This document shows positions 25,219 through 36,810 of a stretch of 64,000 bases of DNA, one piece after another. The notes beneath the pieces are model-generated. The model saw nothing but the letters and a program-made list of their open reading frames with translations, ran no database searches and was not told where the DNA came from. Within the stretch, counting starts at the first letter, position 1, and each line of letters begins with the position of its first letter. The DNA is from Chromatiales bacterium (lineage in GTDB: Bacteria; Pseudomonadota; Gammaproteobacteria; Steroidobacterales; GCA-2729495), in the NCBI GenBank assembly GCA_018699155.1, contig JABIQA010000098.1, positions 1 to 64,000 on the forward strand, written 5' to 3'. The translations under genes were made by a program, and so were the position numbers.

Positions 25219-26091
25219 TTAGTATTGCTTGGGGAGCGGCTTAAGTTGTCGCAAGTACTCTGTAATTGCAGCCCGGTCTTCATCTGTCAGTAGCGCAGTA
25301 TTTTCATCAACCACTGCACTCATTTCGCCGCCCGCGAAATCGCCATTGGGTAGCATGCCGATTTCAAAAAATAATTCCAGATCAGCGCGACGCCAATCTT
25401 TAAGGCCGTCTTCGTGCGGCGTAAGATTAGGTGCGGCCTTCGCATCACCAAAGCCTGGGGCGCCAGCCAGTTCTAAGTCTGACTCTGTTCCGCCTAGCCA
25501 ACTGCGTGGAGTATGGCATTCACCACAGTGACCCAGGTGCCGGACCAGGTAAGCACCACGGTTCCACTGATCGGTTTGACTGCTGTCTATGGCAAAGCGG
25601 GAATCATCAAAATACAGCCACTTCCAGAAGACCAGTGGCATGCGCCATGAGGCATACCATACTAAGTCATGTTCGCGGTTGGTGGCATTCACCGGGTTTA
25701 GTGAGTTGAGGTGAGCCTTAATATCAAGCAGATCGCTCCGACTCATCCCTGTGTATGAAGGGTAGGGAAATGCGGGGTAGTAGTGTTCCCCTTCCGGGCT
25801 CAAGCCATCCTGAAATGCGGACACAAATTCGTCGTCCGTCCACCCACCGATGCCGGTTTCATTATCCGGCGTAATGTTGGGGGTATAAAAAGTGCCGAAG
25901 GGGGATTCAAGCGGACGCCCACCAGCCATTGGCTGGCCCTCTTCGGCTGTGTGGCATGCGACGCAGCCGCTGGCATTGGTCAGATATTCACCGTGACCGG
26001 CATCAGCCGCGTTAACCGATGTGCCAAATACGAAAGCGCTCAGATAAAGCAGCAGGTAGTTATGCCAATTAGTACTGAGCGCTATTCGCAT
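25219..26091 (-). CDS. Exported dihaem cytochrome c (alcohol-dehydrogenase cytochrome subunit type)
   Basis: A 290-residue periplasmic electron carrier with a signal peptide ending VNAADA and two haem-binding motifs, CVACH near residue 42 and CGECH near 188. Surrounding sequence (MAGGRPLESPFGTFYTPNITPDNETGIGGWTDDEF) resembles the cytochrome subunits that accept electrons from membrane-bound alcohol or sugar dehydrogenases. No dehydrogenase lies next to it. It begins 2 bases after the stop of the cytochrome c' gene, so the two are co-transcribed and probably exchange electrons with the same pathway. Confidence 0.87.
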   Translation of the reverse strand: MRIALSTNWHNYLLLYLSAFVFGTSVNAADAGHGEYLTNASGCVACHTAEEGQPMAGGRPLESPFGTFYTPNITPDNETGIGGWTDDEFVSAFQDGLSPEGEHYYPAFPYPSYTGMSRSDLLDIKAHLNSLNPVNATNREHDLVWYASWRMPLVFWKWLYFDDSRFAIDSSQTDQWNRGAYLVRHLGHCGECHTPRSWLGGTESDLELAGAPGFGDAKAAPNLTPHEDGLKDWRRADLELFFEIGMLPNGDFAGGEMSAVVDENTALLTDEDRAAITEYLRQLKPLPKQY

Positions 26092-26093
26092 GA

Positions 26094-26558
26094 TCAGCTT
26101 TCGTGTTCTTCGCGAAACTTATCATGGCAGGTTTTGCATGAGGTACCGACCGCCTTAAAGGCTTTTCCCATAGCTGCGCGATCGCCTGATTCGGCAGCTC
26201 TGGCAAGCTCTGCGGTGGAATCAGCGGCATCTTGTGCGTATTTTTGATAAGTATCCATTTCAGTCCAGATCAGCGGTAAGGCATCGCCACCTTCCGAGCC
26301 GTTAGGCACCAGGTCCCCTATCAATGTGCTTGAAATGGCTAGAGCACGTGTATTGGCAATTAAATGTTTTTCCTTGGCGTTGGGTTCAACTTTGCCCAGA
26401 TAGACAGCAATAAAACCGCCAAAACTGCTGGCCACGGCTTCCATAACAGTTTCGCGGTATTTCGCTGCGTCACTGAGTTCAGCATCATCAGCCATAACAC
26501 TGTGTGCTGGCATGAGTAAAACTGCAGCCGCTATTGCGGCAAAAAAAATACGGTTCAT
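26094..26558 (-). CDS. Cytochrome c' family protein (class II cytochrome c)
   Basis: A 154-residue periplasmic protein with signal peptide (ending SVMADD) and a single C-terminal haem motif, CKTCHDKFREEH. The C-terminal position of the haem and the four-helix pattern are those of cytochrome c'-type proteins, which bind NO or act in redox sensing. Start ATG 26558 follows GAGCACG-like purines. It sits between an alpha/beta hydrolase and the dihaem cytochrome in one reverse-strand run. The precise partner is unknown. Confidence 0.87.
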   Translation of the reverse strand: MNRIFFAAIAAAVLLMPAHSVMADDAELSDAAKYRETVMEAVASSFGGFIAVYLGKVEPNAKEKHLIANTRALAISSTLIGDLVPNGSEGGDALPLIWTEMDTYQKYAQDAADSTAELARAAESGDRAAMGKAFKAVGTSCKTCHDKFREEHES

Positions 26559-26598: not shown

Positions 26599-27603
26599 TT
26601 AATTGAGTCTTTCATTTTCACTGATGACTTCAAAGTTTTCGTAGCGCTCATCAGGTAGGTTAAGCGTACCATCAAGAAATGCTCGCACATCAGCTCCGGT
26701 AACCTCGCCGGCTTCCTGCACGGCCATGTGTCCTACATCAGGATAGGTTTTTAGTTGCACGGATTCAGCGCCACTCAGCAGTTCGATGAACTCGGGCGCC
26801 TGCTCAACTTTTGCTTGGGGGTTTGCTTCGCCCCAAAGAATCAGTACCTGGGCGCGGACTGCAGCAATCACCTCTTCCAGGCCCTCGGATTTATATTGGC
26901 GCAGACGATCGAGCTCGGCCTCGCGCTGACCCTCGCGCATCCACATGTCATGCCAGCGGTCGACCAGCTCTTCTGGTAATTCGCTGGTTTCTCCCCAGGC
27001 AGATGACAGCATATATTTTGGAATGGCGCGTGGCAGAATATAGGCGAGGACTTGGGCAGAGTCGCCCGGCTTGCCGCGCTCCTTCATTTGCTCTTTGCCT
27101 GCCAGTGAGCCCGGACTGAGCAGAATGAGCTTGTCGACACGCTCGGGATGCCGGCTTGCATAGTAAAGCGCAACAGTGCCACCGAGTGACGTTCCAGCAA
27201 TAGAAAGTGTCTCCAGACCCAGCGCATCAATAAAACGATCGGCGAGATCTACGGTGCGCTCTACGCTGTAGTCGCCGCTGGGGTCCGTTCCGGTAAGGCC
27301 ATGGCTGGTCATGTCGAAACGAATGACACGATAGTCGTCTTTGAGTGCTTCGACCCAGGGCTCCCAGCCAAGCAGACTGGCGAAATGGGCGTGGACGAGC
27401 ACAATCGCCGGGCCTTCGCCTTCATCTCGGTAATGAATCCGCACCCCGTCAATATTCATGAAGCGTGATGCGTTGTTTGCGTATTTGGCTTCCAGCTCCG
27501 CGGCGGGTATGTCGCGGTAGGCCCACAAAGCCACCAGCAGGGCCACTAGTGATAGTGCGATTAGCGTACCCAGTGTGTAAGCGATGTAGCGTAATACTTT
27601 CAT
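26599..27603 (-). CDS. Membrane-anchored alpha/beta hydrolase
   Basis: A 334-residue hydrolase with an N-terminal transmembrane anchor (residues about 4-28) and an extracytoplasmic alpha/beta domain. Motifs: HYRDEGEGPAIVLVHAHFASLLGW (oxyanion region), the nucleophile elbow AGTSLGGTVAL (Ser), ILWGEANPQ for the acid and DVGHMAVQE for the His. ATG 27603 follows AGAGGCC at good spacing; an in-frame ATG at 27669 adds 22 unlikely residues. First gene of the four-gene reverse-strand group ending with the dehalogenase-like enzyme. Substrate unknown. Confidence 0.86.
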   Translation of the reverse strand: MKVLRYIAYTLGTLIALSLVALLVALWAYRDIPAAELEAKYANNASRFMNIDGVRIHYRDEGEGPAIVLVHAHFASLLGWEPWVEALKDDYRVIRFDMTSHGLTGTDPSGDYSVERTVDLADRFIDALGLETLSIAGTSLGGTVALYYASRHPERVDKLILLSPGSLAGKEQMKERGKPGDSAQVLAYILPRAIPKYMLSSAWGETSELPEELVDRWHDMWMREGQREAELDRLRQYKSEGLEEVIAAVRAQVLILWGEANPQAKVEQAPEFIELLSGAESVQLKTYPDVGHMAVQEAGEVTGADVRAFLDGTLNLPDERYENFEVISENERLN

Positions 27604-27714
27604 GCGATGGCCTCTTAAGTTTAGCGTCATCATACGCGAGTCGCTGGCGTTACAGTATGGTGAGTACAAGCCGGGCGAGCTTATTGTGCAGTTGATGAAC
27701 AGCCGGTATTTTTG

Positions 27715-27774: not shown

Positions 27775-28911
27775 ATGTTTCTGGCCTTGCGTGACCTGGC
27801 CTTTGCTAAAGGCCGCTTTTTGCTAATGAGCATGATCATTGCGCTCGTCGCATTTCTCATGACCCTGCTAAGCGGTTTGGCATCAGGCCTCATTAAAAAT
27901 AATATTTCCGGTTTGATGGCGCTGGACGTGACTCATCTCGCATTTGAGTACAACGACCGGCCCAATTATCGCAATAGCATGGTTGAACGTGAAATGTGGG
28001 AGGGCTGGCGCGACGCTGAAGGCGTATTGGCAGTCGAACCTCTTGGCCATACTCTTTTTACTGCGCGCACTCCCGAAGGTCTGCCGCTGGATGATGTTGT
28101 GTTATGGGGTGTCGAGCCAGGCAGTTTTCTTGAGCCCGAAGTGACCTTTGGCGAATCGCTTAAGGGCCCCGATGATGGCGTTATTATTTCCGCGCTGCTG
28201 GCGAATAAGCATGACGTGAAACTTGGCGATATGATTGTGCTCGACCGGGTGCTCACTAAGCTTACTGTTATAGGGATCACCGATGAGCAAAATATAGGTC
28301 ATGTGCCGGTGATCTATACCCCGATGCGCAAATGGCAGGAAGCCACCTATGGCCCGCCCGGTGGCCCTGCGCCTGGTGAGAGCCTTCCGGATATTCTATT
28401 TGACTACGCCAGCGTGATTGCGCTAAAGCTTACTCCGGATGCCGATATCGAAAGTGTCGATATTGAGTGGGGTACCGTCACGATGGATAAGCAGTTGGCT
28501 TATGAGGCGTCCTTGGGCTACAAAGAAGAGGTGCAAACCGTGCAGATGATTCAGGGCTTTATGGTGGTGATATCAGCATTGGTTATAGGAGCATTTTTCA
28601 CCATCTGGACTATCCAACGCACTCAGGAAATCGGTCTGGTTAAAGCACTGGGTGGTTCTAGTGCTTATTTATTACGCGACACTATGGCGCAGGCCCTCAT
28701 CCTTATGCTATTGGCGGTTGGTATAGGTACATTCTTCGCCGTTTGGCTCGGGCTCTCGTTGGAGGAGTCGGGCAAACCATTTATGTTGGTCAGAGACAAT
28801 ATTGCCGGGTCTTCAGGGCTGCTGATTGTGGCCGGTTTAATTGGCAGTATGGTGTCGGTGCGGCTGATTGCGCGTATCGATCCAATTATCGCGCTCGGTC
28901 GCACTCGCTAG
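27775..28911 (+). CDS. ABC transporter permease, FtsX/DevC-like
   Basis: A 378-residue permease with one N-terminal transmembrane helix (about 15-40), a large extracytoplasmic domain (about 45-255) and three C-terminal helices, the FtsX/MacB layout. QTVQMIQGFMVVISALVIGAFFTIWTIQRTQEIGLVKALGGS is the typical first C-terminal segment with the cytoplasmic coupling helix. The ATPase gene follows 9 bases later. Such DevC-like pairs commonly export lipids or hydrophobic compounds with an adaptor, but no membrane-fusion protein is encoded here. Controlled probably by the TetR gene at the end of the operon. Confidence 0.87.
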   Translation: MFLALRDLAFAKGRFLLMSMIIALVAFLMTLLSGLASGLIKNNISGLMALDVTHLAFEYNDRPNYRNSMVEREMWEGWRDAEGVLAVEPLGHTLFTARTPEGLPLDDVVLWGVEPGSFLEPEVTFGESLKGPDDGVIISALLANKHDVKLGDMIVLDRVLTKLTVIGITDEQNIGHVPVIYTPMRKWQEATYGPPGGPAPGESLPDILFDYASVIALKLTPDADIESVDIEWGTVTMDKQLAYEASLGYKEEVQTVQMIQGFMVVISALVIGAFFTIWTIQRTQEIGLVKALGGSSAYLLRDTMAQALILMLLAVGIGTFFAVWLGLSLEESGKPFMLVRDNIAGSSGLLIVAGLIGSMVSVRLIARIDPIIALGRTR

Positions 28912-28920
28912 GAGAGCATC

Positions 28921-29613
28921 ATGGGCTTACAGGTTAAAGATGTGGTGTTGGAGCTCGGTGACGGCGATCAGAAAATTACAGCGCTCGATCATGTGAGTTT
29001 CGGCATTGCCGCGGGAGAATTACTTGCGGTATTAGGCCCCTCCGGCGCAGGTAAATCGAGTTTGCTTGCGGTTTGCGGTGGCTTGAGACACCCGACTTCC
29101 GGAACGGTGGTGATCGGAGACAAGGAGTTGACGGCGATGCACGATAGTCAGCTAACCCGCTTGCGACTGAAGTCGATTGGCTTTGTGTTTCAGCAATCGA
29201 ACCTTATTTCTTCGCTGACCTCACTCGACCAGCTGATGCTAATGGTTCATCTGGGCGGCCACAGGCCCACCAAGGCGGATCGTGATCATGCGATGTCGCT
29301 CCTGCGATCAGTTGATATGGCGCATCGCGCAAATCGCTTGCCGGATCAGTTGTCAGGTGGCGAGCGTCAGCGCATAGGTATTGCCCGGGCATTAATGACC
29401 AAGCCTTCGCTGCTGCTTGTGGATGAGCCCACATCAATGCTGGATAGGGTTCGCGGTCGTCAGATTGTGGAGCTGCTGAGCGAGCAATGTCATCAGCACC
29501 AGGTAGCGGCAGTTATGGTTACGCATGACAGATCGATGCTTGATGCTGCAGATCGCAGCCTGCACATTGTTGATGGTCGCATACAGGAAGCAGCAGTAAG
29601 TGCCACGAATTGA
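28921..29613 (+). CDS. ABC transporter ATP-binding protein (LolD/MacB-like)
   Basis: The 230-residue ATPase partner of the preceding permease. Walker A GPSGAGKSS near 38, Q-loop FVFQQSNL, signature LSGGERQRIGIARAL near 142, Walker B LLLVDEPTS and H-loop MVTHD are all present. GGAG precedes ATG 28921. Its 3' end overlaps the TetR gene by 14 bases, so all three are one transcription unit. Confidence 0.92.
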   Translation: MGLQVKDVVLELGDGDQKITALDHVSFGIAAGELLAVLGPSGAGKSSLLAVCGGLRHPTSGTVVIGDKELTAMHDSQLTRLRLKSIGFVFQQSNLISSLTSLDQLMLMVHLGGHRPTKADRDHAMSLLRSVDMAHRANRLPDQLSGGERQRIGIARALMTKPSLLLVDEPTSMLDRVRGRQIVELLSEQCHQHQVAAVMVTHDRSMLDAADRSLHIVDGRIQEAAVSATN

Positions 29614-30208
29614 AGCTGATAGCGTTGCCGAACATGTAAGACAGCAGACTGAACGGCTGTTGGATATGTCCAGCCTGCTTTTTAAAACAAAGGGTTATCA
29701 CGCAACCGATATGGGGGTGATTGCAGCCAAGATGGGTTTGGCACGCAGTTCCCTGTATCGCTATTACCCGAATAAAGATCATATTTTATTAGCCTGTATA
29801 TCCCGTGATATGGCTCCTCTTCTTGATGCTTTTGCAGCCCTGACCGAAAACTACACCGACCCTAACGAGAGGGTGGTTGCCTGGCTGAACCTGCAGATTG
29901 ATTCGGCCAGAAGTCCAGATTGCGCAAGCATGGCGTTGATGAGTGAGTCGCGTTATGCAGGCAGTGAGTTCCAAACCGAAATCATGGCTCTGCATCAACA
30001 GCCGGGCCATGTGCTTGAGCAAGCGCTGGGCGAGCTTGATCATCTAACTGCCAGTGAGGCTCAGTTATTGGCCAAAATGATTGCTGGAATGAGCCATGCG
30101 GCAATGATGCACTTGATGGATCAGGCCTCTTCTGGTCTGCAGAGTAGCAATCAGGTGCGAGACCTTTTGCGCAAAGCTGTAGAGCGGATTATTGGTGCGA
30201 GAGAATAA
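29600..30208 (+). CDS. TetR family transcriptional regulator
   Basis: A 202-residue repressor-type protein: N-terminal HTH near 25-65 (LLFKTKGYHATDMGVIAAKMGLARSSLYRYYPNKDHIL, the TetR DNA-binding pattern) and a helical ligand domain with many Met and Leu. The start is GTG 29600, 9 bases after AGGAAG and inside the ATPase gene, so expression is coupled to the exporter. The simple reading is an autoregulated exporter responding to its substrate, with the palindrome at 27717 as operator. Confidence 0.9.
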   Translation: MPRIEADSVAEHVRQQTERLLDMSSLLFKTKGYHATDMGVIAAKMGLARSSLYRYYPNKDHILLACISRDMAPLLDAFAALTENYTDPNERVVAWLNLQIDSARSPDCASMALMSESRYAGSEFQTEIMALHQQPGHVLEQALGELDHLTASEAQLLAKMIAGMSHAAMMHLMDQASSGLQSSNQVRDLLRKAVERIIGARE

Positions 30209-30265: not shown

Positions 30266-31375
30266 ATGAAACTATTTTTCCACTGTTGCCAGTCAACAAT
30301 GATTGGTATCTTAGTTTGTGGTGCCCCGGTTGTTGTAAGCCAGGCGCAAGATGCGCATCAGCATATGCATAGCGATGTTCCGGCCATGGACGCCACTGGC
30401 AAACGGAGTGCTCCAAAAATGGACCATTCTCTGACGCCCGAGCAGTTGGCGGACTTGCGCGAAAAGATATCTTTGTATCGTGCGATGACTGACCGCGAAG
30501 CCGAATTAAATATGGCAATGATGCGTCCGAACTATGAGTGGTATGTCAGCGACCCAGGTGTAAGCGGTGACTTTGGTGTGCTGGTGTTAGCTCACGGGGT
30601 TGGCGAAAACAGTGACCGTATATTTCATGACACTCTGAGGCCGATGTCAGCGGAGCAACCTACCGCCATTTCCTTCGGTATGGCAATGATGATGTCTTCA
30701 CATATTCAATCCGGGGTCGATGATCTAACTAATGCCGGTGCGGAGACCATCGTTCTGGTGCCGACGGCAATGACTCAATATAACTCCCTAACCCGGCAGT
30801 GGGAGTATGTGTTTGGTATGCGCGAAGAATCCTCTTACCTCGATGTTCCACGGGTCAGCACCAACGCGAATGTGTTGATGACCGCACATTTTGATGCGCA
30901 TCCGCTAATTACCGAAATTCTGGTTGATTACACCAATGAGCAGAGCAGCGATCCGGCCAAAGAAACAATCATTCTAGTGGGGCATGGCCCTGAAGAGATT
31001 GAAGATAACGTGCTTGACCTTGATTTGTTGCAGCCGCACGTTGACCGGATAAAAGCACAGGGCGGTTTCGCTGATGTGAAGATTATAAACCTGCAGGATG
31101 ATGCTTACCCGCCAATCCGTGCAGGCAACGTGAAGAAACTTCGCCGTTGGGTAAGCGGTGCGCAGCGTCAGGGAAACAATGTAATTATTGTGGTTGTTAC
31201 TTCAGCGAGTTTCGGTGTGCAGCAAAAAATCATAGAAGACCTGCGTGGTTTGGATTATCGTTTTGCCGACAAAGGTTTAGCTGAACATCCGAACTACCAG
31301 AAATGGATTGTCGCCGTGGTGAACGAGCGTCTGGCAGCAGAAGTCGAAGCTGAGCAGGCAAGGTCAGCGCGCTAG
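30266..31375 (+). CDS. Exported CbiX/sirohydrochlorin-chelatase-like protein, copy 1
   Basis: A 369-residue protein with a signal peptide (cleaved near VSQAQDA) and a His/Met-rich N-terminal tail (HQHMHSDVPAMD). The mature part has two half-domains resembling CbiX/CbiK chelatases: VLVLAHGVGENSD near 112 and IILVGHGPEE near 240, each with the HG motif at the end of a strand. The position where cobaltochelatases carry a second metal-binding His (after the VP strand) reads VLVPTAMTQYNSL, without His. So fold yes, chelatase activity doubtful. GAGGAG lies 5 bases before ATG 30266. Paralogue of the gene at 32104. Confidence 0.75.
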   Translation: MKLFFHCCQSTMIGILVCGAPVVVSQAQDAHQHMHSDVPAMDATGKRSAPKMDHSLTPEQLADLREKISLYRAMTDREAELNMAMMRPNYEWYVSDPGVSGDFGVLVLAHGVGENSDRIFHDTLRPMSAEQPTAISFGMAMMMSSHIQSGVDDLTNAGAETIVLVPTAMTQYNSLTRQWEYVFGMREESSYLDVPRVSTNANVLMTAHFDAHPLITEILVDYTNEQSSDPAKETIILVGHGPEEIEDNVLDLDLLQPHVDRIKAQGGFADVKIINLQDDAYPPIRAGNVKKLRRWVSGAQRQGNNVIIVVVTSASFGVQQKIIEDLRGLDYRFADKGLAEHPNYQKWIVAVVNERLAAEVEAEQARSAR

Positions 31376-31936
31376 TTTGCGCTTAATAGTCATTATCGCA
31401 CCTGTAATAATAATTACACCGGTGGTTCCCTGCGCTACTGTGGTGGCCGCGAGTTTTGCCTGTTTCATGATTACTGCCGCATCCGCGACACCGCCCAACT
31501 CAACTGGGAATGCCGCTATCGTCATAAGTAATGTGATGTTTTCTAGCCAATCGAACAGAGCAGGAATCAGTAACACTACAAACAGATGTCGCTGCAGTGC
31601 ATATTCATACCAGCGGGGCAGGTTGTGGCGTAGAACATAGGCCCAGATTGCCGCCAGAAACAGTCCCGCAAACAATGGGAAGAAGTAATCGATACTGGTA
31701 AATATGTAATACAGGCTGAACGCCTGATCACTGTAGTCTGCGAGCTGCGCGAAGATCTTGTCGCTGTTTAGCGAATTCTGCAGGTCGAATGGCTTAGCGC
31801 CATTGGCATAGGGTTTAAATTTTTCTCCAAGAAAGAGCAATACCTGAAGACTGCCAAAGAAACCGGCAAACAACAGTGCAAACTTCCACGCAGAACATGA
31901 GCAGCGGATAATGAATTGGTTAATGGGTTTTAACAT
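31364..31936 (-). CDS. Integral membrane protein of unknown function
   Basis: A 190-residue protein with about four hydrophobic helices (near 17-37, 75-100, 115-135 and 165-182). Conspicuous features are a long first loop (KPFDLQNSLNSDKIFAQL) and the motif FDWLENITLL at the third helix. I do not recognise a named family. It is encoded on the opposite strand between the two CbiX-like genes, and its 3' end overlaps the end of copy 1 by 12 bases. Confidence 0.7.
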   Translation of the reverse strand: MLKPINQFIIRCSCSAWKFALLFAGFFGSLQVLLFLGEKFKPYANGAKPFDLQNSLNSDKIFAQLADYSDQAFSLYYIFTSIDYFFPLFAGLFLAAIWAYVLRHNLPRWYEYALQRHLFVVLLIPALFDWLENITLLMTIAAFPVELGGVADAAVIMKQAKLAATTVAQGTTGVIIITGAIMTIKRKLAR

Positions 31937-32049
31937 GCCATATTGCTCCCAAAGTCAGTAGCGCCAATCACGCCGCAGGGGGGAGAAGTGTCGCCGTATC
32001 CTGCCGTATATCTCAAATCAGAGCAAGGTTGATACGGTTCGATTCTGCA

Positions 32050-32077
32050 TTGCCAGACCAGCGCAAGCTGCTATGCT
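32050..32077 (+). promoter_or_regulatory. Candidate promoter of CbiX-like copy 2
   Basis: TTGCCA and TATGCT spaced by 16 bases, with the start codon about 27 bases further on. This gives copy 2 its own promoter, which is needed because a reverse-strand gene separates it from copy 1. Confidence 0.35.
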
Positions 32078-32103
32078 TAGTGTCAGGTTAAACAAGGGTG
32101 TTG

Positions 32104-33195
32104 ATGATGGGGATTTTAAAAATGATGCGCTGCCAGTTGGTTTTTGTTTCGATCGTGTTAGCGAGTGGCTTTGCGGTTGCTGAAGAGGCGCCCAACCCTC
32201 ATGCCGGACATGCAATGGGTGGTGCTGAGATGGATGAGCAGGGCCGGCGTCTTTATGGTCAAGGTCATCAGGTTACCGATGCGGCTGCCGATGAGCTGCG
32301 GGGCCGGATCGACCAGTTTGCCGGTGCCGATACCGCCATGATCCAGCAGGTGATGGATCGTATGGGTTCCAATTATGAGTGGTATATCAGCGATCTGCAG
32401 TTGCGTGGAGATACCGGTGTACTCATTCTTGCGCACGGGTTTCGTGCCGCCGGCGACGATATTTTCCGCCAACGTCTCGCGCCTTTGGCGGACCAGGATC
32501 CGACCGCGCTTGCTATGGGTATGAGCATGATGATGTCCGAGCACATCCAGTTGGCAATTAATGACCTCGAAGCAGCCGGCGCTAAACGGATTGTGGTGGT
32601 CCCCGTGGTTAGCAACCGTTACAACAGCCTGATGCGCCAGTGGGAATATATTTTCGGTTTGAATGACGAACCCGCGTATATGGCTGTGCCCCGTGTGGAG
32701 AGTAAGGTTGAGCTTTTCATGACCAGCCCTCCCGCAGATGCTCCGCTAATAGCGGCAACGCTGGCCGACTATGCGCGTGAAATTAGTACGACACCTGATA
32801 ATGAGTTTTTACTGTTGGTGGCGCATGGTCCTGAAGCTGCGGCCGACAACGAAATTGTGCTGGATATGCTGAGTAATCTTGTTGGGCAAGTGCAAGAATC
32901 GGTTGGTTTTGCAGCGGTAGGGGTCGTCTCACTTCAGGACGATTCGCCGAAAGAAGTTCGTGCAGCGAATGTTGCGGCAATGCGCCAGTTGATTGAGCAG
33001 GCAGAGGCGGATGGCTATAAGGTTTTGGTTATTACCAACCTGCTGAGTGCACGCGCTGTGCAGGCGGAGTTAAGGCGTGACTTGCGCGGCCTTAATTACA
33101 CATTTAACGCGAAAGGCATTGTTCAGCACGATAACTTTATTCGCTGGATTGAAGCATCGGTTGCCGACACGCTTGAGCTAAATCCCCAGTCGTAG
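32104..33195 (+). CDS. Exported CbiX/sirohydrochlorin-chelatase-like protein, copy 2
   Basis: A 363-residue paralogue of the protein at 30266, with its own signal peptide (ending GFAVAEE) and a short His-rich tail (HAGHAMGG). Shared blocks include SNYEWYISD, a Met-rich helix (ALAMGMSMMMSEHIQ), RYNSLMRQWEYIFG and LRGLNYTFNAKG. The two HG motifs are in VLILAHGFRAAGDD and LLLVAHGPEAAADN. As in copy 1, the segment after the VP strand (VVVPVVSNRYNSL) lacks the second chelatase His. AAGGG precedes ATG 32104; ATG 32107 and 32122 are alternatives. Its stop is 2 bases from the convergent lipoprotein gene. Confidence 0.75.
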   Translation: MMGILKMMRCQLVFVSIVLASGFAVAEEAPNPHAGHAMGGAEMDEQGRRLYGQGHQVTDAAADELRGRIDQFAGADTAMIQQVMDRMGSNYEWYISDLQLRGDTGVLILAHGFRAAGDDIFRQRLAPLADQDPTALAMGMSMMMSEHIQLAINDLEAAGAKRIVVVPVVSNRYNSLMRQWEYIFGLNDEPAYMAVPRVESKVELFMTSPPADAPLIAATLADYAREISTTPDNEFLLLVAHGPEAAADNEIVLDMLSNLVGQVQESVGFAAVGVVSLQDDSPKEVRAANVAAMRQLIEQAEADGYKVLVITNLLSARAVQAELRRDLRGLNYTFNAKGIVQHDNFIRWIEASVADTLELNPQS

Positions 33196-33197
33196 CT

Positions 33198-33848
33198 CTA
33201 GTCTTCCTGTTGCAGGCTGGCTGCGGCTTTGGCATCAACTTCCTGTTGAGTAAGAATATCGCCAGCTATTTCTTTGGCTAACTCGGAAATAAGGTCGCTA
33301 AGCGCCGCCACTTGTGAAGAATAGCTGCTTGACGATACCTGTTGGGTAAGCACCGTGCGCTTTGCCAGCAAGGTCACCCTAGGCCGAGGAGTAACAAGGT
33401 TCCACTGTGCCTTGAGTGTGGCAGTGTTGTTGGCATCTACGTCGAAGCGCGTGATTGTGATGAGAACCTGATAATCAAACAGCTCAATAGCATCATTGCC
33501 GACCCCGAATTCATGCACCCAATTGCTACTAAGGGCGTCACTCAGGTTTGTGGTGAGGATCCGACTAATACTTTGTTCTAGTGGCTCGACCCAGCGATCG
33601 AATTCAGCAACCTCTACCTGATAATCATCTTGCCGGGTGACTATGTTGGGCTGTTGGAGGTAGCGCGCAATATACAGCGGACCTAGTCGCACACTTAGCA
33701 TGCTGGATGGCGAGCTATCAGTTTGGCTAATGCGTTCTTCCAATTGATAGTAGCGAGTAGGCGGAGATGAGCCGCAGGCTGCAAGGAGTGCGAGCCCGAT
33801 GATGAGTGCAAGTAATTTTCCGCAGGTCTGAAATATTTTTCCAGTCAT
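33198..33848 (-). CDS. PqiC-like ABC transport auxiliary lipoprotein
   Basis: A 216-residue outer-membrane-type lipoprotein (lipobox LALLAACG) of the PqiC/ABC_trans_aux family. RYYQLEE after the lipobox and VRLGPLYIARYLQQPNIVTRQDDYQVEVAEFDRWVEPLEQSISRIL are the family hallmarks. It is the last gene of the MCE operon, 10 bases after the MCE gene, and would receive or pass on lipid at the outer membrane. Confidence 0.88.
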   Translation of the reverse strand: MTGKIFQTCGKLLALIIGLALLAACGSSPPTRYYQLEERISQTDSSPSSMLSVRLGPLYIARYLQQPNIVTRQDDYQVEVAEFDRWVEPLEQSISRILTTNLSDALSSNWVHEFGVGNDAIELFDYQVLITITRFDVDANNTATLKAQWNLVTPRPRVTLLAKRTVLTQQVSSSSYSSQVAALSDLISELAKEIAGDILTQQEVDAKAAASLQQED

Positions 33849-33858
33849 TGACGTCTAC

Positions 33859-34845
33859 CTATTTTTTTTTGCCGAAAAGCAGGGATTCGGGATGCTGTTC
33901 AAGATAATCAGCCAAGACTCTGATTGATCGTGCAGCGCCCGAGACTTCGGTGAGCGCTTCAGATAGCTGCACAGACAATACCGACTGACCATCCACCTGA
34001 CTTTTAGCCGCAGCCAGAAACTGCTCTGCCTGATCGAGCGTATCGGCTAGGCCCTTGGCAGCGGGGACTAAGCTATCGTCCAGATTCTGAATTAATGTTT
34101 GGGCACTATTAATAGCCGCGTTTAGGTCTCTGGTTGTTTCGTTCAGATCCTGAGGCAATGCCTGCATGCCCTCGCTATTCACTATAGTGTTAATGCCTGA
34201 AATCGCACTCCGCAGCTCCTGCGAGTTGGCGAGTTGATCGACGCCGCTAAGAATGCTTGTTAACTTCTGACTTAGAGCTTTAATGTCGATATCGCGCTTG
34301 AGTTCAGACAAGAACATTTCTGCATCTTCGATGGCTTGGGTTATGCCCGAGGTTACGCTAGGAATTTCCGGATACGGGATGGTCTCATTGTAAAATACAG
34401 CTTCGGTATTGGGTTTGAACTCCAGTTCGACACTGAGCTGTCCGGTGACAAAACTCTCGGAGTCTAGTTGCGCGCGCAGACCGTTTCGAATCCAATTATC
34501 TATTGCAATACCGCCATCTTCTTTGGTGTACATACCAACCACCCCCGAGCCTTTTTTGAAGCGAAACTTTTTGGGGTCGATTTGGTATGTGACCGATATG
34601 AGTGTTTGCTGATTGTTAGCTGATGCGAATAGGCTGATATCGGTTACATAGCCTATGCTTACACCGCGAAACATGACATTAGAGCCGACTCGCAGACCCT
34701 TGGCCGAGTTATCAAAGTAGCTAACGAAGGTTGATTTGCTCTTAAACAGCTGACCGCCACCAAATAACATGACTGAAACAGCCAGCAGAATAATGGCGCC
34801 AAGGACAAAGCCGCCAATTAATGCGGGTTTCGCTTTCTTGCTCAT
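33859..34845 (-). CDS. MCE (MlaD-type) lipid-transport protein
   Basis: A 328-residue periplasmic protein with an N-terminal membrane anchor (IGGFVLGAIILLAVSVMLFGG) and one MCE domain at about 38-120 (FVSYFDNSAKGLRVGSNVMFRGVSIGYVTDI). The C-terminal 200 residues are helical, expected to form a hexameric tube or needle as in PqiB-related proteins. It follows the ATPase gene by 43 bases and precedes the PqiC-like lipoprotein. Role: shuttling phospholipid or another lipid between membranes. Confidence 0.9.
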   Translation of the reverse strand: MSKKAKPALIGGFVLGAIILLAVSVMLFGGGQLFKSKSTFVSYFDNSAKGLRVGSNVMFRGVSIGYVTDISLFASANNQQTLISVTYQIDPKKFRFKKGSGVVGMYTKEDGGIAIDNWIRNGLRAQLDSESFVTGQLSVELEFKPNTEAVFYNETIPYPEIPSVTSGITQAIEDAEMFLSELKRDIDIKALSQKLTSILSGVDQLANSQELRSAISGINTIVNSEGMQALPQDLNETTRDLNAAINSAQTLIQNLDDSLVPAAKGLADTLDQAEQFLAAAKSQVDGQSVLSVQLSEALTEVSGAARSIRVLADYLEQHPESLLFGKKK

Positions 34846-34888
34846 GTGGATTCGTTTCCTCTGAGTCTGTGATGTTGCAACGCTATTG

Positions 34889-35686
34889 TCATTTGGACTT
34901 ACCCTTATCGGGCAGTTCGTTCGGCTCGCCCCGTAGCAGGAAGTTTCTCACATCCTGTATCGGTGAGGTATCCCGCAGTTCTAATGGGTTGCCAGTGGTA
35001 AGTTGAGTATGGGTTGCTGCGTCCAGGAAGACCGAGTTATCGCCGATACTGAACATGCTGGCCAATTCATGGGTGACTATAACAATAGTGGTTTTCAAGC
35101 TGTCGCGGAGCTCCAGAATCAAGTCATCCAGTAGCTTTGCGCTGATCGGGTCGAGGCCCGCCGACGGCTCATCGAAAAATAGTATTTCCGGGTCCAGAGC
35201 CATTGCGCGAGCCAGGCCAGCTCGCTTGTTCATGCCGCCGGAGATTTCGCTCGGATAATAGTCATCAAAGCCCGCCAGGCCAACCAGCGATAATTTGTAT
35301 GAGCAGAGTTCCGCAATGTCTTTTTCGCCGAGTTTTGTGTATAGGCTCAGTGGCAGGGCTATATTCTCTGCAAGAGTCATCGAACTCCACAGGGCACCAC
35401 TTTGAAACAGAGTGCCAAACTTTCGCTTCATGGCCAGTCGATCATCGTCATCAGAGCTCCAGAAGTCTTCGCCGTCAAAGCTCACGGCCCCTGCACTTGG
35501 TTCTTTTAAACCAATAAGGCATTTAAGCAGCGTGCTTTTGCCGCACCCGCTGCCACCCATAATGATAAAAATATCGCCATGGTTAACGGTGAAGTTAAGA
35601 TTCTGCTGGATGATAAAGTCGCCATAGGCCATCGTCATGTCGCTAACGGTTATATGTGGTTTGGCTGTGTGCTGTTCGTTCATCAT
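34889..35686 (-). CDS. MCE transporter ATP-binding protein (MlaF-like)
   Basis: A 265-residue ATPase. Walker A GGSGCGKST, Q-loop LFQSGALW, signature EISGGMNKRAGLARAM (the MlaF-type SGGM) and Walker B ILFFDEPSAGLDP are present. The start ATG 35686 overlaps the permease stop by 4 bases. An upstream reading that extends inside the permease gene is not supported. The C-terminal tail of about 40 residues includes DTSPIQDVRNFLLRG, seen in MlaF-like proteins. Confidence 0.92.
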   Translation of the reverse strand: MMNEQHTAKPHITVSDMTMAYGDFIIQQNLNFTVNHGDIFIIMGGSGCGKSTLLKCLIGLKEPSAGAVSFDGEDFWSSDDDDRLAMKRKFGTLFQSGALWSSMTLAENIALPLSLYTKLGEKDIAELCSYKLSLVGLAGFDDYYPSEISGGMNKRAGLARAMALDPEILFFDEPSAGLDPISAKLLDDLILELRDSLKTTIVIVTHELASMFSIGDNSVFLDAATHTQLTTGNPLELRDTSPIQDVRNFLLRGEPNELPDKGKSK

Positions 35687-36810
35687 ATTCCGATATTGAT
35701 GTAGATGACTGTGAGCACTGCTGCACTGACTACAATCATCACGATACCCATGACCACCGCATTGGTTGTAGCCTGCCCGACAGCCATGGCGTTGTTGCCG
35801 CAATTCAGACCTTGGAGACAGCCGGCAATGCCAATTAGGCTGCCGTAAACAATGGCTTTGAAGAGACCACCGAACAGCGTGCTTAGGGAGAGAGCCGACT
35901 GGGTTTCCACCAGGTATTGCATGGCGCTGACATCGAGCATGCTCATGCCAACGGCAAGTCCGCCAAGAATGCCGATCAGGCTGCTGTACATGGTGAGTAG
36001 GGGCATCATGATGATTAATGCAATGACCCGGGGCAATGCGAGAAAGTCGATGGGGTTAATGCCCAGCGTCGTCAATGCATCGATTTCTTCATTGACCTTC
36101 ATCGTGCCAATTTGTGCCGCATAGGCTGCGCCGGTGCGGCCGGCCATTATGATGGCAGTCATAATCGGCGCCATCTCACGAACCATTGCTACTGCGACCA
36201 GATCGGCCGTGTAGATGCCAGCCCCGAACGCTTTCAGCTGAAAGATACCCACAAAGGCAAAGATCATGCCGATAAGAAAGCTGATGAGTCCGACAATGGG
36301 GAGAGCCTCGGCGCCGGCCTCTTGTATAACGAGTGCCAAATCTGATTTCCGGTAGTTTGCCTTGCCTCTAATAAGGCGTCCGAAAGATAAAACCAATTCG
36401 CCGATGAACGCGGTGATTTCAACACAGCTACCCCATATATCGAGGGTGGCATTACCGAGTCTGGTTACCAGGGAGTCGTGTCGAGCAGATTTTCGTGCTC
36501 CCTCGCGCTCTTCAACTGTCAGTGCCAAATGCAGCAGACCGCGGGCCCCATCTGGAAGTCCGTCGAGATTTACCGACAGCTGATATTGTTTAGCGTACTG
36601 ATGGATCGTGCAGAGCGAGATAAGCAGAGCGCTGTCCCAGTCATTCAGATTATCTGAGTTAAAGCTGATTGCGGCACCTTCGGTGTCGAACTCTCCGAGC
36701 AGTTCTTCAATCGCGGGGCGTTTAGCGTTAATCACCCAGTCGCCGGAAAAAACCAGCATTGCCTGGCCGGCAGTTGACCTGTCAATAGTGAGAGTCGCGT
36801 TTGCTGTCAT
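35683..36810 (-). CDS. MlaE-family permease with N-terminal STAS domain
   Basis: A 375-residue fusion. Residues 1-105 form a STAS-like domain (MLVFSGDWVINAKRPAIEELL ... DWDSALLISLC), equivalent to a separate MlaB; residues about 115-375 are the MlaE permease with EAGAEALPIVGLISFLIGMIFAF, MAPIMTAIIMAGRTGAAYAAQIGTMKVNEEIDAL and PRVIAL. First gene of the permease-ATPase-MCE-lipoprotein operon. The fusion explains why no separate mlaB is present. The upstream region shared with the DUF47-PiT operon holds candidate palindromes. Confidence 0.92.
   Translation of the reverse strand: MTANATLTIDRSTAGQAMLVFSGDWVINAKRPAIEELLGEFDTEGAAISFNSDNLNDWDSALLISLCTIHQYAKQYQLSVNLDGLPDGARGLLHLALTVEEREGARKSARHDSLVTRLGNATLDIWGSCVEITAFIGELVLSFGRLIRGKANYRKSDLALVIQEAGAEALPIVGLISFLIGMIFAFVGIFQLKAFGAGIYTADLVAVAMVREMAPIMTAIIMAGRTGAAYAAQIGTMKVNEEIDALTTLGINPIDFLALPRVIALIIMMPLLTMYSSLIGILGGLAVGMSMLDVSAMQYLVETQSALSLSTLFGGLFKAIVYGSLIGIAGCLQGLNCGNNAMAVGQATTNAVVMGIVMIVVSAAVLTVIYINIGI

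Follow-up and report, generated by a model that had tools for sequence, protein, structure and literature searches.

The question raised by this locus is what two exported proteins with the predicted fold of a tetrapyrrole chelatase might do once they have left the cytoplasm. The window, that is, the whole stretch of DNA analysed, comprises 64,000 nucleotides of a Chromatiales bacterium (assembly GCA_018699155.1, contig JABIQA010000098.1, positions 1 to 64,000) and carries two such genes, whose products are called here protein 1 and protein 2 (Table 1). We favour a role in the periplasmic binding and handover of haem or porphyrin, together with a metal-binding tail, and give this reading a probability of about 40%. 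It is preferred because two of the three metal ligands of the known chelatases have been lost, while residues in both lobes of the protein stay conserved.

Both open reading frames are full length, their products share 38% identity over 349 aligned residues with one gap, and homologues occur as intact frames in many genomes. In this respect a preliminary description of the window, made from its sequence alone, was accurate in listing two full-length related proteins. The shared sequence blocks were also as described, except that protein 1 has PNYEWY and not SNYEWY. Although the frame of protein 2 opens at a GTG at 32098, translation more probably begins at the ATG at 32107. The in-frame stops recorded in certain homologues proved to be natural ends in the three that were checked. 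When searched against Pfam and NCBIfam, both proteins fell below every cut-off. The best hint came from CfbA, a nickelochelatase, which the first lobe matched below threshold (E about 1.5e-5; protein 1, 1.6e-5), with a score of 24.9 bits against the NCBIfam cut-off of 120. PF01903 reached 12.5 bits in protein 2 (cut-off, 22) and gave no match in protein 1, and PF00762, the ferrochelatase HemH family, was unmatched by either protein at E values up to 1. A family profile reached CfbA weakly (E 0.0025), and phmmer with one protein against the PDB gave nothing useful. In literature searches of open-licence papers, no account of a family of this kind was found. The numbers of promoters and terminators lay close to chance level or exceeded it slightly.

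The fold was examined by running AlphaFold2 on protein 2 with 13 family members, and the model had a mean predicted local distance difference test score (pLDDT) of 81.9 and a predicted template modelling score of 0.80. Its top match in the PDB was SirB of Bacillus subtilis (Z 18.7, root-mean-square deviation 3.0, 234 residues); further matches were ferrochelatases (Z about 16), the periplasmic CbiK of Desulfovibrio vulgaris (Z 15.8) and FetB of Porphyromonas gingivalis (Z 15.1). Sugar-binding proteins and glutamate racemases were also present in the Foldseek list, with query template modelling scores of about 0.25–0.33, clearly under those of SirB and CbiK. In a profile-profile comparison, the family matched exported CbiX lipoproteins of relatives with a probability of 97.2% (E 3.2e-11, 248 columns). 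Structure prediction and structure search thus agree, confirming at the level of models the two-lobed class II chelatase fold of the CbiX/SirB type that had been proposed; protein 1 is assigned the same fold because it is homologous to the modelled protein 2.

In SirB and CfbA, the metal ligands are His9/10, Glu42/43 and His75/76, and SirB has a second set formed by Arg134 and Leu200; the His pair is strictly conserved in known CfbA proteins, and the Glu alone is not (PMC11301274). We aligned the family profile to CfbA and counted the positions by hand on the printed alignment, which placed H110 on His9, M141 on Glu42 and S174 on His75. The family was followed in 83 homologues, from which identical cores had been removed; near-identical ones stayed in the set, so that the counts represent sequences and not independent events. 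H110 was kept in 81 homologues, position 141 was Met in 80, and position 174 was Ser, Thr, Glu, Gly, Asp or Trp and never His. According to this alignment, the family has lost two of the three residues of the SirB/CfbA metal triad and the first His is the sole remaining ligand, which argues against ordinary metal insertion. The preliminary description had noted the HG motifs and a missing second His; the first HG motif is indeed kept and the second catalytic His absent. In addition, M139 is invariant and H146 is found in 74 homologues; together with M141 they occupy the region where chelatases carry the metal carboxylate. Of the second-lobe residues, H240 occurs in 82 of the 83 homologues and N248, D279 and R285 in all of them. 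Such strong conservation in both lobes argues for a retained function. From the internal symmetry of the fold, H240 would lie at the position of SirB Arg134.

Export is indicated for both proteins, as had been claimed, by a hydrophobic segment with an AxA-like site behind it. A hydrophobic leader was found in 81 of the 83 homologues and a lipobox in 8, when both were called by simple rules rather than by SignalP. The His/Met-rich character of the N-terminal tail is far beyond chance: the tails contain 10.7% His and 9.3% Met, compared with 1.6% and 1.5% in 103 other exported proteins from the same loci, and at least three His plus at least two Met were counted in 59 of 81 tails and in none of the 103 controls. 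Many tails are built of MDHSxM repeats; a literature search on the MDHS motif returned unrelated papers only.

In the reading that we favour, an exported family with the class II chelatase fold would have exchanged the insertion of metal for a role in binding. Once the protein is exported, its lobes would close on a tetrapyrrole, either haem or porphyrin, held by one conserved His from each of them, H110 and H240, which the pseudo-symmetry of the fold would set opposite each other, and the His/Met tail would hold a metal ion or shield the site. The protein would then serve as a periplasmic carrier or buffer; in the subfamily linked to ATP-binding cassette (ABC) transporter genes, the ligand may be handed to the MacB-type transporter, whose genes lie immediately upstream, or received from it. 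Because respiration in the hosts still depends on haem although HemE and HemH are mostly missing, the likely purpose would be to salvage external haem or to traffic it.

The searches behind this last point were unplanned: a check for canonical chelatases in relatives led to HemH and from there to HemE, HemB, cytochrome oxidase subunit I (COX1) and AhbD, and the results of all six profiles are given here. Strong and weak HemH hits were divided at E about 1e-50, a limit set after the gap between full-length and weak hits had been seen. Within the window's family, 4 of 40 genomes had strong HemH. It was not found in the window genome (94% complete; no PF00762 match), in the congener G399 (98%) or in the one-contig genomes G402, G404 and G409. 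Among 147 relatives, 15 of 56 carriers of the chelatase-like family had strong HemH compared with 80 of 91 non-carriers (Fisher p 4e-14, kinship ignored), a value that is not independent evidence because most carriers belong to one family. Outside the window's family, the proportions were 11/21 and 80/86. In alphaproteobacterial carriers reached through their loci and counted regardless of genome completeness, strong HemH was present in 8 of 14 and absent in 6. Of 19 genomes tested from the window's family, 17 had no HemE match, one-contig G404 and G409 included; G402 gave a weak partial hit and G405 has three strong copies. Every HemH-bearing outgroup family sampled had HemE. COX1 was detected in 39 of the 40 genomes, so haem is needed. 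In the window genome, HemB is present and stands in a row with genes resembling those for glutamyl-tRNA reductase (hemA), porphobilinogen deaminase (hemC) and a HemL-like aminotransferase (L132:3-4711), although neither HemE nor HemH turned up there. A sirohaem-to-haem route via AhbD (TIGR04545) was considered as an explanation of the missing HemE and HemH, and no genome scored above the cut-off.

Most occurrences of the family are therefore in bacteria whose final steps of haem synthesis seem to be lost, and the HemH and HemE gaps together with the kept cytochrome oxidase suggest haem dependence, with kinship confounding the counts. The earlier guess of a haem-handling system thus gains a lead at the genome level, while the ligand itself is only surmised. 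Several observations weigh against it. Forty of the 147 genomes are from one family; four genomes of that family, the window's own (G398, G401, G416 and G426), do have HemH, and family f100 and several Rhodospirillaceae hold both HemH and a member of the chelatase-like family. Of the late steps of the pathway, the profiles covered HemE and HemH, and a rerouted pathway could still operate. Neither a haem receptor nor a haem importer nor a haem oxygenase was among the commonest neighbour families. Finally, a His/Met tail is commoner in copper proteins than in haem proteins.

A periplasmic carrier or buffer of copper or another soft metal is the best-placed alternative. The ion would be bound by the DHSxM-like tail and by a His/Met cleft (H110, M139, M141 and H146), the MacB-type exporter would take part in a metal or stress response, and no tetrapyrrole would be involved. 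MDHSxM-like repeats resemble the copper-binding repeats of CopA-type proteins, the enrichment in His and Met and the position of the invariant M139 and the near-invariant M141 and H146 would be accounted for directly, and copper binding by His and Met is chemically sensible because 80 of the 83 cores contain no Cys. What such a protein does not explain is the two-lobed tetrapyrrole fold, the conserved residues of the second lobe or the pattern of HemH and HemE. In addition, when 110 neighbouring proteins were grouped into families, none of the commonest was one of copper homeostasis. This copper reading seems to us possible, although rather unlikely.

The second-lobe residues would find a use if the protein were an exported true chelatase or dechelatase with a rebuilt site, moving metal into or out of porphyrin outside the cytoplasm through H240, D278/D279 and R285, as in CbiK and HemH, whose sites are in the C-terminal half. 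H240, N248, D279 and R285 are indeed better conserved than H146 of the first lobe, hosts mostly lack a cytosolic HemH, the site of a class II chelatase can sit in the C-terminal half (PMC4063343), and FetB offers a precedent (PMC13402209). By symmetry, however, the second-lobe counterpart of the second metal ligand is also not His, no genes for a reductant or a ferrous-iron supply are linked, and ferrous insertion is disfavoured in the periplasm, so that we regard this as improbable. Still less probable is recruitment of the fold to a non-tetrapyrrole, non-metal ligand. This could be a hydrophobic compound processed together with the products of alpha/beta hydrolase, DUF1838 or UbiD-type genes, and the pattern of HemH would then be a coincidence of lineage. 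Such genes and those for glutathione S-transferase (GST) and major facilitator superfamily (MFS) proteins are neighbours, and the linked TetR regulator is closest to KstR and fatty-acid regulators, but the catabolic neighbours vary by locus while the His/Met features are constant, and the tail would be unexplained.

Exported proteins of this fold are not new in themselves. The statement that chelatases are cytoplasmic was too general, since the D. vulgaris periplasmic CbiK (CbiK-P; PDB 2xvx, 2xvz) and P. gingivalis FetB/IhtB (PDB 9b86), both among our fold matches, are extracytoplasmic (PMC4063343, PMC13402209). The hallmark of these proteins, a signal peptide or lipobox joined to the chelatase fold, is found here too, with the leader called by rule, and the present family is a variant of what is already known. 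With SirB, CfbA and CbiX it shares the two-lobed fold, the first catalytic His and the weak CfbA profile match, whereas it differs from SirB and CfbA in being exported, in having Met for Glu42 and a replaced His75, in an extra His240 in the second lobe, in an added N-terminal helical region with the His/Met tail, and in scores far under the curated cut-offs. CbiK-P is likewise exported and of the same fold (PMC4063343) but binds cobalt via a His that the window family lacks, and identity is about 13–14%. FetB is about 10% identical, comes from a different phylum and is reported to insert Mn into protoporphyrin (PMC13402209); its host, P. gingivalis, is without complete haem synthesis (PMC13227078, PMC13402209). 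As for the transporter, Escherichia coli MacAB-TolC expels protoporphyrin IX (PMC4263509), by analogy with which a MacB-type partner would be plausible for a tetrapyrrole protein. The permease and ATPase in the window are of the MacB/FtsX type (PF02687, PF12704, PF00005), but the operon lacks a MacA or TolC gene.

It is doubtful that all these elements form one undescribed extracytoplasmic haem or porphyrin system, with a repurposed chelatase fold, one His per lobe, a metal-binding tail and a MacB-type transporter, that makes up for the lost HemE and HemH of Gamma- and Alphaproteobacteria, most of them uncultured. If haem is the ligand, the family would help to explain the cofactor source of a respiring, apparently haem-dependent uncultured lineage and would show a chelatase fold turned into a periplasmic carrier; if copper is, it would represent a new type of periplasmic metal protein. 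In either case, automatic annotation of such proteins as chelatases is no evidence for the synthesis of sirohaem or B12.

Table 1. Features of the window at the two chelatase-like genes and their surroundings; locus counts come from a simple home-made gene caller and are approximate
Feature	Position	Strand	Basis
c-type cytochrome, two cytochrome c stretches	25219..26091	-	PF00034 E 1e-9; conserved in several loci
Cytochrome c'	26094..26558	-	PF01322 E 6e-22; conserved in L036, L050, L057, L063, L068
Alpha/beta hydrolase, divergent conserved neighbour	26599..27669	-	PF00561 E 5.1e-25; 13 loci
MacB/FtsX-type permease	27775..28911	+	PF02687 E 9.9e-11, PF12704 E 8.8e-9; 19 loci
ABC ATPase, MacB/LolD type	28921..29613	+	PF00005 E 4.2e-33; ATPase cluster adjoins family members in 25 loci
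TetR-family regulator, same apparent operon	29600..30208	+	PF00440 E 4.9e-11; 12 loci
Exported chelatase-fold protein 1, 369 aa, ABC-linked subfamily	30266..31375	+	ATG 30266; homology, tree
Predicted signal peptide of protein 1, about residues 1-28	30266..30349	+	Hydrophobic segment, AxA-like site, simple rules
His/Met-rich tail of protein 1, about residues 29-58	30350..30439	+	Family-wide enrichment vs 103 exported controls
His110 codon, protein 1 (CfbA His9 / SirB His10)	30593..30595	+	Family alignment; numbering per PMC11301274
190-aa helical membrane protein, between genes 1 and 2	31364..31936	-	Conserved downstream of ABC-linked protein, about 11 loci
Exported chelatase-fold protein 2, 362 aa, second subfamily	32107..33195	+	AlphaFold model, structure search, tree
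Predicted signal peptide of protein 2, about residues 1-25, AVA site	32107..32181	+	Simple rules; low pLDDT at residues 1-39
His/Met-containing tail of protein 2, about residues 26-57	32182..32277	+	Tail composition
His110 codon, protein 2	32434..32436	+	Family alignment

The two c-type cytochromes and the ABC transporter first reported are present, and so is the membrane protein, which has several helices and is encoded on the opposite strand. The permease and ATPase genes are 9 bases apart, the ATPase and TetR genes overlap by 14 and TetR and gene 1 are separated by 57 bases; judged by this spacing, the four genes are likely to form an operon. The conserved unit consists of the alpha/beta hydrolase, the MacB-type permease, the ATPase, TetR and one chelatase-like protein, with the membrane protein downstream, and not, as had been suggested, of the pair with the membrane protein between them. 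The membrane protein gave a confident helical model (pLDDT 93.8), with no PDB match at E under 0.001 and no Pfam match. Neither a MacA-type fusion protein nor TolC is encoded between 27775 and 33195; a membrane-fusion protein and an RND-type (resistance-nodulation-division) pump gene were seen at a few relatives' loci only. A beta-propeller-like protein, named by inspection only, neighbours family members in approximately eight loci, and the other neighbour families (DUF1838, UbiD, GST, MFS) vary between loci. Directly downstream of the pair, on the minus strand (33198-36810), lies what looks on inspection like an Mla-type lipid transport set, composed of a lipoprotein, an MlaD-like protein, an ABC ATPase and a permease.

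The family is rare in the phylum (2 of 398 evenly sampled genomes, one of them the window's own) and common near the window, where 56 of 147 relatives carry between one and six copies. When 84,980 species genomes were scanned for one conserved motif, an approach that misses divergent members, 50 loci were found, all in metagenome-assembled genomes titled Gammaproteobacteria, Alphaproteobacteria or subgroups of these, except one titled Pseudomonadota. In a tree of 82 members built by a quick method, proteins 1 and 2 fell in different subfamilies. The group of protein 1 has 20 members from alphaproteobacterial and gammaproteobacterial loci, all adjoining ABC genes (branch support 89, not starred), so that the reported linkage to the transporter is kept across the group. 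The two subfamilies were seen side by side at L036, which belongs to the window's genus, and at L050, from a single further genome; elsewhere they are usually apart. The pair is thus real in the window, but it is mostly a local arrangement of two different subfamilies.

Three relatives without a tail form a separate group (L004:1465-2430, L116:6330-7229 and L117:215-1114), with MARGG or MAHGG as the first motif, and may represent a stage that preceded the gain of the tail. We also noticed two other exported CbiX-type lipoproteins in G402 (L098:5748-9251), flanking a NosR-type FMN-binding (flavin mononucleotide)/4Fe-4S membrane protein; one keeps the full HGS...GGHTNSDIP motif, and its partner is without the second His. 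Paired PF01903 hits were also present in G405, G412, G417 and G420. A distant relative with 28% identity and two chelatase-like units is found on plasmids of Candidatus Manganitrophus (L138:8230-15974), where the units are followed, a few genes on, by a TonB-dependent receptor and a PepSY-type membrane protein and in one case also by a ferritin-like protein. The weak HemH hits in the window's family came, at the two loci read, from a separate type of protein of about 500 residues with an N-terminal hydrophobic segment (L127:11-3012, in tandem, and L125:1718-3376). This protein matches ferrochelatase weakly (E 1e-5, below the cut-off), carries the motifs VHGMPW and SQDHFADPH, and is possibly another extracytoplasmic chelatase-like family.

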